A DNA stretch of 38,856 nucleotides from a virus. A model generated the notes under the pieces. The model saw only the letters and a list, made by a program, of their open reading frames with translations. It searched no databases and was not told the DNA's origin. Positions 28,106 through 38,626 of the stretch are shown piece after piece (position 1 is the first letter of the stretch; each line of letters opens with the position of its first letter). The translations under genes and the position numbers were made by a program. The stretch covers positions 1 to 38,856 of IMG/VR virus record IMGVR_UViG_3300031673_000201. One strand, written 5' to 3'.

Positions 28106-28327
28106 ATGTTGTGTAAAAATGTCATAGAAAAATTCAACAAGTTAGTCCCCTTTCCGATAACATCCGAGAAAATCAAGGCTGCAGGCTACGACGTAGGCCA
28201 ATATCTCAAAAGCATAGGAGAAGAGTTAAGTCAATGCGAAGATGTTGATGAGCATCCGCTGGCAAAGCGCATTAGTGGTATGATACAAAAAACGTTAAGG
28301 ATGACAAATGAGAGTCGGCATAATTAA
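28106..28327 (+). CDS. Small hypothetical protein
   Basis: 73 aa, MLCKNVIEKFNKLVPFPITS, with a helical middle (GQYLKSIGEELSQCEDVDEH). GAGGATG precedes the ATG. The last 20 nt overlap the next gene, a radical SAM enzyme, suggesting coupled translation. Function unknown. Confidence 0.6.
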   Translation: MLCKNVIEKFNKLVPFPITSEKIKAAGYDVGQYLKSIGEELSQCEDVDEHPLAKRISGMIQKTLRMTNESRHN

Positions 28328-29207
28328 TATCGAGCCGAAAATTTTCAATACTGCGTACATGCAGATTGCGAATTATTTCAGGCGGCGGGGTGATAATGTC
28401 GAATGGTGGAGTCCAATCACGCACAGGCAATTCCACGTTGTTTTCTGCAGCTCTCTATTTGACTACACAAACAAATCGGAAATACCAGGTGACGTGATCT
28501 GTGGTGGTACGGGTTTCGATGTCACTTCAAGGCTTTCAAGGGAGATGGAGAATTGCGATCTGGATTATGATATCTATCCGAAATGCCGCAAAACTTTTTT
28601 GTGGTTTTCGAGGGGATGCAACAAGAAATGTCCCTGGTGTGTTGTGCCCGAGAAGGAAGGGGGGATCCACCCGGTGCCTGTCAAGAACCTGAACCCTCGT
28701 GGCGAATATGTGGTTGTTTGCGATAACAATTTTTTTGCAAATCCGGAATGGTTCGAGGCGGTAAGTTGTTTGCGGCACCTTAAATTTGCCCTGGATTTCC
28801 AGGGCATTGACGTAAGGGTAGTGACAGGATATCAGGCATTGACGTTATCCCGGCTGCGCCATTACAAGCGGATTAAGTTCGCCTGGGACATCCCGGAAGA
28901 CGAACGAAAAGTCCTGGCCGGCATAAATTTTCTGGTCAAATATATCAAGCCCTATCGGCTGATGTGCTATGTTCTTATAGGCTATAATTCCAGTGAAGAA
29001 CAGGATTTACATCGGATAGAAACATTGAGGAATTTGAAAATTGATCCGTTTGTCATGCCGTTTGACCGGAGCAATTTGTACCAGCGGTCGCTGGCCAGAT
29101 ATGTAAACAATAAGAAGATTTTCAAAAAGTGCACGTGGAAGGATTATCGGAAGCGGGTTTTGGAGTCAGAACGGGCGGGCCACGGATGGACGAAAGCCAG
29201 ACACTGA
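28308..29207 (+). CDS. Radical SAM protein
   Basis: 299 aa. The radical SAM cluster-binding motif is C104-xxx-C108-xx-C111 within FSRGCNKKCPWCVVPEKEG. The N-terminal about 95 residues (MRVGIINIEPKIFNTAYMQI, VVFCSSLFDYT, GDVICGGTGFD) have the shape of a truncated cobalamin-binding-like domain as in B12/MiaB-type radical SAM proteins, and the barrel continues with VVVCDNNFFANPEWFEAV, VRVVTGYQALTLSRL and CYVLIGYNSSEEQDL. It would cleave S-adenosylmethionine to start radical chemistry; the substrate is unknown. It overlaps the preceding gene by 20 nt. Confidence 0.85.
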   Translation: MRVGIINIEPKIFNTAYMQIANYFRRRGDNVEWWSPITHRQFHVVFCSSLFDYTNKSEIPGDVICGGTGFDVTSRLSREMENCDLDYDIYPKCRKTFLWFSRGCNKKCPWCVVPEKEGGIHPVPVKNLNPRGEYVVVCDNNFFANPEWFEAVSCLRHLKFALDFQGIDVRVVTGYQALTLSRLRHYKRIKFAWDIPEDERKVLAGINFLVKYIKPYRLMCYVLIGYNSSEEQDLHRIETLRNLKIDPFVMPFDRSNLYQRSLARYVNNKKIFKKCTWKDYRKRVLESERAGHGWTKARH

Positions 29208-34172: not shown

Positions 34173-35903
34173 ATGAGTAGTCAAACTTTACAACAAATGT
34201 CGATCGACAGCATTGTGCCGAGCAAGGACAATGCCCGTCACATCGACCAGAAGTCCGAGAGTTTTCTGGAGCTGGTGAACAGCATCGAGGCCGGCGGTGT
34301 CCAGATACCGATCCACGTCTGGCCCCATCCGAAAAGGAAAGATAAGTATGAGATCCGTGCCGGTGAACGTAGATGGCGGGCGTGCAAAAGCCTGAAACAC
34401 AAAACCATCCCGGCAATCGTTCACCGGGGAATTAGTATTCAAGTCGCTATGACTTTGACGATCACCGAGAACAAATTTCGACAGAAACTTACGCCCCTCG
34501 AGGAGGTTGAGGAGATAGCCCGCTGCATGGACCATCTCGACTCCGATGCGAAGCTCATAGCCGGTTTGATCGGACAAACTGAGCAGTGGGTCAGGCTGCG
34601 GGCAAACATTCACAGGAACTTGTCGCAGGGATGGCGCAAGGCATTTCCTGATATGGTCCGGTTTATGTTTTTTAAGAAGTGGTCGATTGGACATCTCACT
34701 TTGATTGCCCGGCTGCCACAGGTGGCTCAAAAGGAGCTGCTGGCGGAAATTGAAAAATATTATTGGCAATGGGAGGATGTTTCCGTGCAGGACCTGGATA
34801 AACGTATCGGTGGATCATTGATGCTGCTGATCAGGGCCAAGTGGAACCTTGACGATGATACGTTACTTCCGAAGGCCGGAGCGTGCTCGAAGTGCGTCAA
34901 ACGAAGCGGTGCCGATCCGGTTTTATGGTACGGTGCGGCAAGTGAACAAATCAAAACGAAGGACCGCTGCCTGGACCTGCAATGCTGGGAGAATAAGATG
35001 CAAAGATATCTGCAGCAGCGTGCCAAGGAACTGTCGGGAAAGTATTCGGATCTTGCTTACATAGCCACACAAGATTTGACGGGCGATGTGAAAGCTAAGT
35101 TATCGGAACAATTCGGCCGGGTGTTCGATAGGAATGACGTCCAAAAGTCGACTAAGGGAGCCAAGGGAGCTGTCCCGGCGTTGGTGGTCAGCGGCGATGG
35201 AATGGGTAAGGTTACTTTTGTTAAGGAAAAACAATTTGCCAGGCCTGCAGGTGGTGGTGCAAAGCGGGCCGGCAGGGTGACTCCATTAAAAGAACGCCGG
35301 GCCGGGCTTAAAGCCAAGCGCTGGGCACAGGTCCTCATAGAGCTGCGGAAAAAAGTCGATGCGGCCGGCGTGGATCAGGTCATATACGCAGACAAGATAA
35401 CGGGCATCATGGCTTTGGCCTCGCTTTACGGCAACGTGGCATGCTGGATGTTAGAAACCCCGTCGAGAGAGCGGAACCTGGGCTCAACAGATAAGGAGCT
35501 CCAAAAACAAATCGATAACCTTGTTAAGGAAGCCAGGGGCTCTGGTATCGCTGCAGGACGCGAAAAGGCCTTGAAACTTCTGTGGGCCAGTGTAAAGCCG
35601 ACGCTCAAAAATCTTTTGTCTTATGGCGGCCCGGCTTCACAAACATCGGGATATTGCATCCTTAGTGCCAGGTGGGTCGCTAAGCTGATCCAGGTCGATA
35701 TCGATAAGCTGTTCGTTCAAGTATCAGCAATGAAAGGATTCTCCGAGCCCAAATCATGGAAGGACATGAATGAGGATGGCACTCTGAAGGCCAAGAAAGT
35801 CAAAAAGGGCAAATCGAACATGAAGAAAAAAGTTGAAACTGAGGAGGTGAAGTTCGAGAAGGCCAAGAAGGCCAAGGAAGCCAGAAAAAAGAAACCGGCG
35901 TAA
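34173..35903 (+). CDS. ParB/RepB-family protein with extended C-terminus
   Basis: 576 aa. ParB N-terminal domain (about 8-110: IPIHVWPHPKRKDKYEIRAG, GERRWRACKSLKHKTIPAIV, TENKFRQKLTPLEEVEEIAR), then a KorB/HTH-like region (AGLIGQTEQWVRLRANIHRN). A middle motif has Cys at CSKC and further RCLDLQCWENK, typical of large ParB-like proteins of plasmids and phages and probably metal-binding. The tail is very basic (KKKVETEEVKFEKAKKAKEA). No ParA is present, so it may be a nuclease or DNA organiser rather than a partition protein. AGAAAGGAG precedes the ATG. Confidence 0.8.
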   Translation: MSSQTLQQMSIDSIVPSKDNARHIDQKSESFLELVNSIEAGGVQIPIHVWPHPKRKDKYEIRAGERRWRACKSLKHKTIPAIVHRGISIQVAMTLTITENKFRQKLTPLEEVEEIARCMDHLDSDAKLIAGLIGQTEQWVRLRANIHRNLSQGWRKAFPDMVRFMFFKKWSIGHLTLIARLPQVAQKELLAEIEKYYWQWEDVSVQDLDKRIGGSLMLLIRAKWNLDDDTLLPKAGACSKCVKRSGADPVLWYGAASEQIKTKDRCLDLQCWENKMQRYLQQRAKELSGKYSDLAYIATQDLTGDVKAKLSEQFGRVFDRNDVQKSTKGAKGAVPALVVSGDGMGKVTFVKEKQFARPAGGGAKRAGRVTPLKERRAGLKAKRWAQVLIELRKKVDAAGVDQVIYADKITGIMALASLYGNVACWMLETPSRERNLGSTDKELQKQIDNLVKEARGSGIAAGREKALKLLWASVKPTLKNLLSYGGPASQTSGYCILSARWVAKLIQVDIDKLFVQVSAMKGFSEPKSWKDMNEDGTLKAKKVKKGKSNMKKKVETEEVKFEKAKKAKEARKKKPA

Positions 35904-36360: not shown

Positions 36361-36503
36361 CAACAGGACTCGAGATGAGGTAACTTGAATCGAGATGAAA
36401 TGAACTGAGCAGAAAGGAGGCGAACAGACAAGAAAACAACGCGAGAGGATTTGAAGAGAATCGAGATGATCGGAATGGATGCGACACGAACAGAAATGAA
36501 AAC
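36361..36503 (+). repeat. GA-N3 pentamer array, left part
   Basis: Non-coding. From C36361 the sequence parses into pentamers, nearly all GANNN, with single extra C bases at 36361, 36437 and 36503, i.e. spacings of 76 and 66, both 5n+1. The latter two follow GAAAA and the first follows AAAAA. It ends in a T-run and the Shine-Dalgarno of the RAMP-like gene. It is the same element as 37156-38288, split by that gene. Confidence 0.85.
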
Positions 36504-36524: not shown

Positions 36525-37157
36525 ATGTACGAATTGAAATGCACAATCGAAGGGCTGGTCGAAGTTTTATATAACCGGCCGCCTATGGAAATCCCGGGTG
36601 GAAGAGCACCTAAAAAACGACAGACGAACAGGGAGGCATTGCTGAAAGAAAAGATTTACGTGGATAGGAAAGGTGTTTATATGCCTGTCGATAACATCGA
36701 GATGATGCTGATAGGAAGTACGGCCAGGACAGGTGCGGCCAAGATTCTTGGCAGTTATATCGAGACCAACAAAGGAACGGAATATACGAACTTTTGCAAA
36801 GGTTGTATATGGATTACCGCGCTGGATGGAAGTAAAAAACTATACTGGCAGCCGAATAGAAAAACCTGGGACGGCACCGATGTTAGGTCTTTTCCTGATA
36901 AAAGCCAGCAAAGGCATACCGCGGAAAGGCCCATGATAAAAACACCCTGGAAGCTGACTTTCGTTATCCACGTCACCGAGGACACATGGTCACCGGATAT
37001 GGTAAAAAGGTTTTTCGATGTGGCCGGCATGCGGGTGGGACTTGGCTCTTATGGTCCCAAGTTCGGACGGTTCCTGGTTAAGGAGTTCGTAGATTTGAGA
37101 GATGGTACAGACCATGCAAAACAACCCGGGAAAAAGAGTAAAAAGAAAGCCAGCTGA
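36525..37157 (+). CDS. Conserved phage protein, RAMP-like (Cas7-type fold suspected)
   Basis: 210 aa, AAGGAG upstream. The pattern IEGLVEVLYNRPPMEIPGG near the start, GVYMPVDNIEMMLIGSTART, then PWKLTFVIHVTEDTW and AGMRVGLGSYGPKFGRFLVK near the end is one I know from a widespread phage/mobile-element family. The Gly-rich VGLGSYGPKFGRF segment and strand order resemble RAMP proteins (Cas5/Cas7), which bind RNA. The C-terminus is a basic tail. The gene is embedded in the pentamer array: one part ends 21 nt before it and the other begins inside its stop codon. An array-binding role is inference. Confidence 0.6.
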   Translation: MYELKCTIEGLVEVLYNRPPMEIPGGRAPKKRQTNREALLKEKIYVDRKGVYMPVDNIEMMLIGSTARTGAAKILGSYIETNKGTEYTNFCKGCIWITALDGSKKLYWQPNRKTWDGTDVRSFPDKSQQRHTAERPMIKTPWKLTFVIHVTEDTWSPDMVKRFFDVAGMRVGLGSYGPKFGRFLVKEFVDLRDGTDHAKQPGKKSKKKAS

Positions 37158-38288
37158 TTCGATGGGAGGTGAGACGAATCGACTTAAGCCGAAGTGACAA
37201 GAGACGATGCGAAAAGAAAACAACCTGAACCGAGACGAAGAGAGACAAGGTGATTTGATGTGATTCGAGACGAAACGAAAACAACGTGAGATGAGTGGAC
37301 CTGATTGGAAGCGATTGGACAAGATGCGAAAAGAAAACAACATAACCGGATTTGACAGGAGGTGATTCGATTTGAACCGAGAGGACAAGACGCGAATAGA
37401 AAACAACGAGAGTAGATCGGAGGCGATATGATCGGAGTGGACAAGACGCGAACAGAAAATAATACGATATGAGCAGAAATGAGTTGATGAGAACAGAATC
37501 AACATGAGATGACGAGCGAAGAAAACAAGCTGATTCGAGAGGATTTGAATCGAGGTAAAGTGAAAGGACAGGACGCGAAAAGAAAACAACGTGAGAGGAT
37601 TGGAGGTGATGTGATTCGAGCGGATCTGAGTTGATGGAAGATGACCAGATGTGAAAAGAAAACAAGCTGAGAGGATTGGATTTGATCGGATATGAATGGA
37701 AAAGAGCTGACGCGAGACGACGCGAAAAGAAAACAAAGTGATTTGAGATAAGTCGAAGGGAGACGACATGAGCTGAACGGACAAGACGTGAAGAGAAAAC
37801 AACTGGACAAGAATCGAGAAGATTCGAGGGGAGACGAGATGATTCGAGGTGACAAGACGTGAAGAGAAAACAACTGGACAAGAATCGAGAAGATTCGAGG
37901 GGAGACGAGATGATTCGAGGTGACAAGATGCGAAAAGAAAACAAGATGATGTGAGATGACGGGCACCGAGGTGATTTGAGCCGAAGTGACAAGAGACGAT
38001 GCGAAAAGAAAACAACAGGAGCTGATTCGAGGTGAGGTGATATGATTGGATTGGAGACGAACGGACAAGATGCGAAAAGAAAACAACACAACACGACGCG
38101 ACCCGATCAGAGCCGAGACGATTTGAGCCGCGCAGACTTGACGCGAAGAGAAAACAATGTGAGATGAAATGAGTTGATTCGAGCGGAACAGAAGTGATGG
38201 GACATGACGCGAAATGAAAACAAGCAGAGAAGAGCCGAGAGGACATGAATAGAATGGACGTGACGCGAAAAGAAAACAAAAAGAAAAC
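37156..38288 (+). repeat. GA-N3 pentamer array, right part (17 main units)
   Basis: Hand parse of 37156-38277: 221 pentamers plus 17 single bases. 194 pentamers begin GA and 218 have A at the second position. Each unit has 11-15 pentamers and ends in GAYGC-GAAAA-GAAAA (or close variants) plus one extra base (C, once T). The extra bases are at 37221, 37282, 37338, 37404, 37460, 37526, 37587, 37663, 37734, 37800, 37871, 37942, 38013, 38084, 38155, 38221 and 38277, with a terminal short unit to 38288. After each extra base a pentamer AANNN starts the next unit. Plus-strand stops are frequent; unit lengths are not multiples of three, so it is not coding. Confidence 0.92.
37780..37921 (+). repeat. 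Perfect 71-bp tandem duplication of one array unit
   Basis: 37780-37850 is repeated exactly as 37851-37921, in phase with the array units. It shows that units are gained by whole-unit duplication. Confidence 0.9.
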
Positions 38289-38335
38289 AGTAGACGTGAA
38301 TCGAAGTGATACGAGTAAATGAGAAAGGAAATGAC

Positions 38336-38626
38336 ATGAGTACGTTAGATGTAAGTGAGTCGAAGGCCACAAAACTTGATGAGATGGAACACAGTGCGTT
38401 GGATATTCTGAATAGTTTTTTCAAGGGCAAACGGGCTTTCGGCGATGAGGTAAAGCTTGCCATGCAAAGTCTGAATGTGGTTGCGAAGAACCGTCAGACC
38501 TTGACGGCCAGGGAAGGAATGAGGTTCAGTATGGTATCGGCAATCACTGATGATCCGAAGGCATTGAAGAAATATGTCAATGCTACCAGCCCTGAAATCG
38601 GCAAATTACTTCCGGGCAAACCTTAG
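38336..38626 (+). CDS. Small hypothetical protein after the array
   Basis: 96 aa, MSTLDVSESKATKLDEMEHS, helical, with LDILNSFFKGKRAFGDEVKL and ending GKLLPGKP. GAAAGGA precedes the ATG; the pentamer phase of the array (GAAAT-GACAT-GAGTA-C) runs through the start codon. Function unknown. It is the last gene before the window edge; if the genome is circular the methyltransferase follows. Confidence 0.65.
   Translation: MSTLDVSESKATKLDEMEHSALDILNSFFKGKRAFGDEVKLAMQSLNVVAKNRQTLTAREGMRFSMVSAITDDPKALKKYVNATSPEIGKLLPGKP

Follow-up and report, generated by a model that had tools for sequence, protein, structure and literature searches.

VIPR systems combine a viral RAMP protein (Vipr) with vrRNAs and silence rival viruses in an RNA-guided manner (PMC13142463, 2026). 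In that preprint, VIPR is proposed as an ancestor of CRISPR and is described as using a gapped two-of-three code. The vrRNAs consist of pentamers that alternate between constant letters, GGY 'or a related consensus', and hypervariable bases; seven types are distinguished, and a vrRNA has 9–16 repeats that are followed by an invariable 3' tail (PMC13142463). A conserved secondary structure of the tail is reported there and is stated for one clade only, the SUSP1 clade. Targeting follows a 1-nt skip rule in which the skips lie at wobble positions and the targets in rival mobile elements, and the accessory genes of VIPR are named vap1–6, of which vap1 is reported to enhance repression (PMC13142463).

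Here, we analysed a window that comprises the whole 38,856-nt stretch of the virus record IMGVR_UViG_3300031673_000201. It contains a gene for a 210-aa protein inside an array of pentamers, and this locus is very probably a phage-borne VIPR system with a predicted guide array, which would repress competitors by RNA-guided DNA pairing. Its membership of VIPR, with a variant repeat of GA and three variable letters (GA/NNN), is well supported by sequence and by a structure model, because the protein has the Cas7/RAMP fold and matches the SUSP1 Vipr in a profile search.

The closest described system is VIPR type II of Escherichia phage SUSP1 (PMC13142463; PDB 36pp). Both systems are virus-borne and encode a small viral RAMP protein with a G-loop. 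Furthermore, in both systems guide units flank vipr, the pentamers contain fixed and hypervariable letters, the 3' tail is invariant, a small gene lies within the module and the guides are codon-aligned. The two systems differ in the repeat (GA/NNN in the window, GGY/NN in SUSP1), in the number of units (~20 compared to 4) and in the tail, which is short, A-rich and predicted to be unstructured in the window whereas that of SUSP1 is reported to fold. In addition, no family match was found for the 96-aa accessory candidate of the window, and the window Vipr is 22% identical to that of SUSP1 (alignment A3) and belongs to its own clade.

A further comparison is to the backbone subunits of CRISPR types III and VII, Csm3 and Cas7. 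These share the fold with the window Vipr (Z up to 13) and presumably the binding of RNA in repeated registers, whereas their sequence identity in structural alignments is 5–13%. In the window, a 5-nt repeat is written into the predicted RNA itself, whereas the CRISPR subunits bind a guide of unrestricted sequence in a 6-nt register. Unlike CRISPR loci, the window contains no CRISPR repeats or spacers, and no cas families were found among the neighbouring genes with Pfam, PHROGs and PADLOC. The original prediction had described the locus as recalling CRISPR-type organisation without cas genes; this was right in spirit, and such an organisation now bears the name VIPR (PMC13142463).

The protein within the array belongs to the Vipr family

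The vipr open reading frame has an ATG start with AAGGAG just 5' of it, and its product contains the Gly-rich loop VGLGSYGPKFGRF, which aligns with CGVGDWRPRFGRF. Like other members of this family, which are single-domain G-loop RAMP homologues of ~20 kDa, the window protein consists of one such domain.

When the window Vipr alone was compared to the PDB with phmmer, we obtained a weak match to the 'SUSP1 Vipr protein' 36pp that covers the G-loop (E 0.32). With a profile that was built from the window Vipr together with its four direct relatives and does not include SUSP1 (A4), 36pp_D was matched over the full length (187 positions, E 4.5e-23), and with a 28-member Vipr profile the E-value was 7.7e-38. 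The former is the cleaner test, because SUSP1 had been part of the model by which the 28 members were collected.

The AlphaFold model of the protein is of high confidence (pLDDT 90.2, pTM 0.84), and all top 50 VIA-align rows for this model are CRISPR RAMP subunits. The best PDB folds are Csm3 and type VII Cas7, with Z 13.0 over 165–167 residues, in a fold library with entries to April 2026 that does not contain 36pp. By its predicted structure, the window protein thus has a RAMP/Cas7 fold, as had been proposed from its loop and strand pattern.

Among phage protein families, PHROG 4652, for which no function is recorded, matches residues 41–186 of the window Vipr (E 4.7e-8) and is probably a Vipr-related family. 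Searches of Pfam, NCBIfam and PADLOC gave no family match. Single-sequence searches found no relatives of the window Vipr in viral contigs or phages and none of the Vipr of a sister virus (L063) in plasmids or phages, and a scan of bacterial genomes with a Vipr profile of the GA/NNN clade gave no match. The relatives analysed below were first reached via the DNA pattern, that is, GA at period 5, and not by a single-sequence protein search.

The array consists of tailed pentamer units on both sides of vipr

The array flanks vipr with two units upstream (36362–36503) and 17 full units and one run-in unit downstream (37158–38335; Table 1). The original prediction of a gene embedded in a pentamer array was thus accurate. 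Ten consecutive GA at period 5 are matched 28 times in the window, compared to 0 matches in 100 dinucleotide-preserving shuffles. Among the 163 variable pentamers, the first position is G in 94% and the second is A in 99%, whereas the three variable positions have an entropy of 1.92–1.95 bits. All 17 downstream units have a length of 5n+1 (56–76 nt), and each terminates in GCGAAAAGAAAACAA or a close variant of it. The tail GAAAA[C/T]AA occurs in 18 units, and in most units it is preceded by GACGC/GATGC GAAAA.

Table 1. Features of the predicted VIPR module in the window (all on the plus strand).
Feature	Position	Strand	Description	Basis
Upstream vrRNA-like unit	36362..36439	+	CAG, then GANNN pentamers, end GAAAACAA	
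Second upstream vrRNA-like unit	36440..36503	+	end GAAATGAAAAC, then T run and vipr ribosome-binding site	
vipr	36525..37157	+	210-aa RAMP/Cas7-fold protein (predicted), G-loop residues 171–183	ORF, profile match, model, fold search
Downstream array, 17 vrRNA-like units	37158..38279	+	NNN, ~9–14 GANNN pentamers, conserved tail ~GACGCGAAAAGAAAACAA	
Last, run-in repeat unit	38280..38335	+	GTA GACGT GAATC GAAGT GATAC GAGTA...; fused to the ribosome-binding site of the gene that follows	
Candidate vap (VIPR accessory protein)	38336..38626	+	96 aa from ATG	homologues follow the array directly in three further viruses

Compared to the published vrRNAs, the repeat corresponds to a related consensus and not to a literal GGY/NN, and it has three variable bases instead of two. 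The units of the window have 10–14 pentamers, including those of the tail, and thus lie within the published range of 9–16 repeats; they also end in an invariable 3' tail. Single-sequence folding of this tail gave no structure. An Rfam search yielded no credible match, and a scan for promoters and terminators showed no excess over chance.

Two adjoining 71-nt units (starting at 37803 and 37874, together 37803–37944) have an identical guide and differ in their tails alone; therefore, they represent a recent unit duplication. A tandem-repeat scan of the array detected nothing beyond this duplication, and in particular no CRISPR-type array in which identical repeats alternate with spacers.

The array and Vipr occur together in other viruses

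Viral contigs were scanned with a DNA-only criterion, namely ten GA at period 5; we fetched at least 120 stretches and searched these for Vipr by iterated profile search starting from the window protein; many stretches were positive. A diverse GA array was defined by at least 15 distinct pentamers, which yielded 21 loci that include the window and its sisters, with some records counted twice. Vipr was found within the stretch at 19 of these loci, and the other two lie on records that carry Vipr, among the matches listed. Vipr was also present at 11 of the 102 loci without a diverse array, and most of these 11 bear GAC/NN or GGA/NN arrays of shorter length. The whole records without a diverse array, as searched, revealed one further Vipr (L081).

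Coincidence does not explain the pairing of the protein with the array, because all 21 diverse GA arrays, chosen by DNA pattern alone, are on Vipr-carrying records. The co-occurrence that the original prediction asked for in other genomes is thus observed, whereas its suspicion that related proteins exist without arrays, so that the link might be coincidental, is not upheld for this Vipr family at the 21 diverse-array loci.

In another virus (L116, IMGVR_UViG_3300037195_001613), two intergenic GA/NNN units are present on the reverse strand at ~2416–2587, with a similar tail, GAACAG(A/G)CTTTTTTAT. Vipr was sought on this 53-kb virus record and none was found; the units are possibly orphan vrRNAs.

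Vipr, the array and a candidate accessory gene travel as a module

In a protein comparison of the window and three sister viruses, vipr, the array and the gene directly after it are clearly common. The sole other shared item is a radical-SAM-like protein (28308–29207), which is weakly similar in the sister viruses. Thus, vipr, the array and this gene travel as a module between otherwise unrelated viruses. The homologues of the 96-aa product are 43–52% identical, and no further copies of the gene were found in the fetched loci. The model of the product is helical and of low confidence (pLDDT 68). This protein is a good candidate vap and probably an accessory factor. In one sister virus (L125), the last unit is arranged as it is in the window.

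The window and its sisters form a clade with a GA/NNN repeat

The majority of Vipr loci have a constant letter among the three that follow GA, resulting in GAC/GAY + NN or NN + GGA, and in most GAC/NN or GGA/NN relatives one position has an entropy of 0–1 bits. In the window and two sister lineages, L057/L125/L126 and L063/L124, GA alone is fixed and three letters vary. The variable positions of the sister arrays have 1.8–1.96 bits (L057/L126 and L063), and the sister Viprs are 44–49% identical to the window Vipr. These Viprs form a single clade on a long branch (support 100/100). The repeat of one further locus (L055) is likewise loose, but the Vipr of this locus is placed elsewhere in the tree. 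The GA/NNN variant may already be included in the seven types of the preprint (PMC13142463).

The two related 64-kb viruses L125 (10577–11340) and L126 (10577–11190) have the vap-proximal guide units in common but not those closest to vipr, a pattern that points to turnover at a single end. Their units also contain pentamer-sized insertions and deletions.

The variable triplets of the window and one sister array are in codon phase

When the NNN triplets of the window are joined, frame 0 contains one stop in 179 triplets, compared to 8.6 expected, and has a codon-usage z of 4.5, where the codon usage is that of the virus. The mirrored antisense frame is the only further frame with a high value (z 4.2). 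The phase was also found with a column-preserving null (P < 0.001) and with a distinct-triplet test that removes copy number (P 0.005). The triplets of L125 contain no stops, compared to 5.4 expected (P 0.003), and both the column-preserving and the distinct-triplet test give P 0.002; the same tests show no phase in a third array (L124). Shuffling the third variable base alone lowers the codon score of the window (P 0.004); therefore, the third base holds information linked to the other two.

The codon-like, in-phase triplets in the window and one sister suggest that coding target DNA has been copied three bases at a time. This agrees with VIPR as described, where targets are mostly in coding DNA and the skip lies at the wobble position (PMC13142463). 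Either the third base takes part in reading the target in this system, or it is just a remnant of the target copy.

Searches for the targets themselves identified none. The window's own guides have no good match in the window, that is, there are no self-targets, which is consistent with guides aimed elsewhere. No targets were found in 1.3 Mb of fetched loci, in viral contigs with wobble-masked patterns of four window guides, or in bacterial genomes with a pattern scan of one window guide. The few matches in the pattern scans looked like chance, and their third bases agree at about chance level. A search of viral contigs with a guide conserved between L125 and L126, taken as one contiguous 18-mer, also revealed no target, and the matches of this guide show little or no extension past the core. 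A BLAST search of three guides against phages gave no match.

How the array may be read

Two readings of the three variable bases refine the VIPR interpretation. According to the first, the published code is kept: two bases are read, one target base (the codon wobble) is skipped, and the protein of this clade is indifferent to the base at the skip position. Homology to the SUSP1 Vipr argues for this, as do the 1-nt skip rule at wobble positions in the published system (PMC13142463) and the codon phase of the window, which puts the wobble at pentamer position 5. A freely drifting third base should be independent of the others, which is not quite the case (P 0.004), though recently copied guides could retain such a coupling. 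We consider the chances of this reading to be evenly balanced.

According to the second reading, which we regard as possible and somewhat unlikely, all three variable bases of GANNN pair, so that contiguous target DNA would be recognised at three bases per repeat without a skip; the target information would thus be continuous even though GA interrupts the RNA. The high variability of all three positions, in the window as well as in L057/L126 and L063, is consistent with it, and so is the codon-like coupling of the third base to the preceding two, which is seen in the shuffle as well as in the column and distinct-triplet tests. However, no target was found on which the third bases could be checked, and the codon phase itself hints at one tolerant position, because a guide of which every base is read would not have to be in frame. 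Moreover, L124 lacks the phase, and the codon usage was taken from the virus and not from the target. That the guide RNAs store a full codon per pentamer with all three bases read, and thereby form a bridge from the gapped VIPR code to the continuous CRISPR guide, is a tentative idea that we hold to be rather unlikely.

It is highly improbable that the array makes no guide RNAs and is instead a DNA site for partition or replication that is bound by Vipr or by the ParB-like protein encoded nearby (34173–35903). The ParB-N gene does lie 0.6 kb upstream of vipr, and the spacing of the pentamers is about half a helical turn. However, conservation of the ParB gene does not extend to the sister viruses, a binding site has no need of hypervariable codon-like letters and tails that differ per virus, and Vipr accompanies the diverse GA arrays at all 21 loci examined, among the matches listed. 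The chance that the array is a low-complexity coding repeat is negligible: a 460-aa minus-strand frame is open across the whole array, but shuffled pentamers yield equally long frames (P 0.37) and the sister arrays are not open throughout. We thus rejected this frame as a gene, its length being a chance product of the composition of the array, and vipr is, as predicted, the only credible gene there.

Under the preferred reading of the locus as a VIPR system, the published SUSP1 system is the model from which we infer that the array is transcribed and that an RNP assembles, targets DNA and represses it. The array would be transcribed into ~20 short guide RNAs (vrRNAs), each with ~10–14 pentamers and a short A-rich 3' tail. 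Vipr would polymerise on the RNA with a single copy at each pentamer, and each copy would grip the constant GA and expose the variable bases. This complex would then pair with target DNA, each pentamer covering ~3 nt, and block the transcription of genes of a competing phage, satellite or prophage, with the 96-aa downstream protein as a probable accessory factor.

The GA/NNN clade poses the testable question of whether a gapped guide code can become continuous by relaxing one scaffold base, and the window offers a compact system with ~20 natural predicted guides. Furthermore, GA at period 5 is a DNA-only signature by which Vipr loci can be located without protein searches.

Further genes of the virus

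The terminase of the window is less than 30% identical to its best-ranked phage matches. Two ParB-N proteins are encoded (103–1467 and 34173–35903), one of which is fused to a DNA methyltransferase whereas the other is the one upstream of vipr. On the minus strand, an outer-membrane beta-barrel ORF (PF13505, 23929–24756) lies beside tail genes and is possibly a cargo gene.
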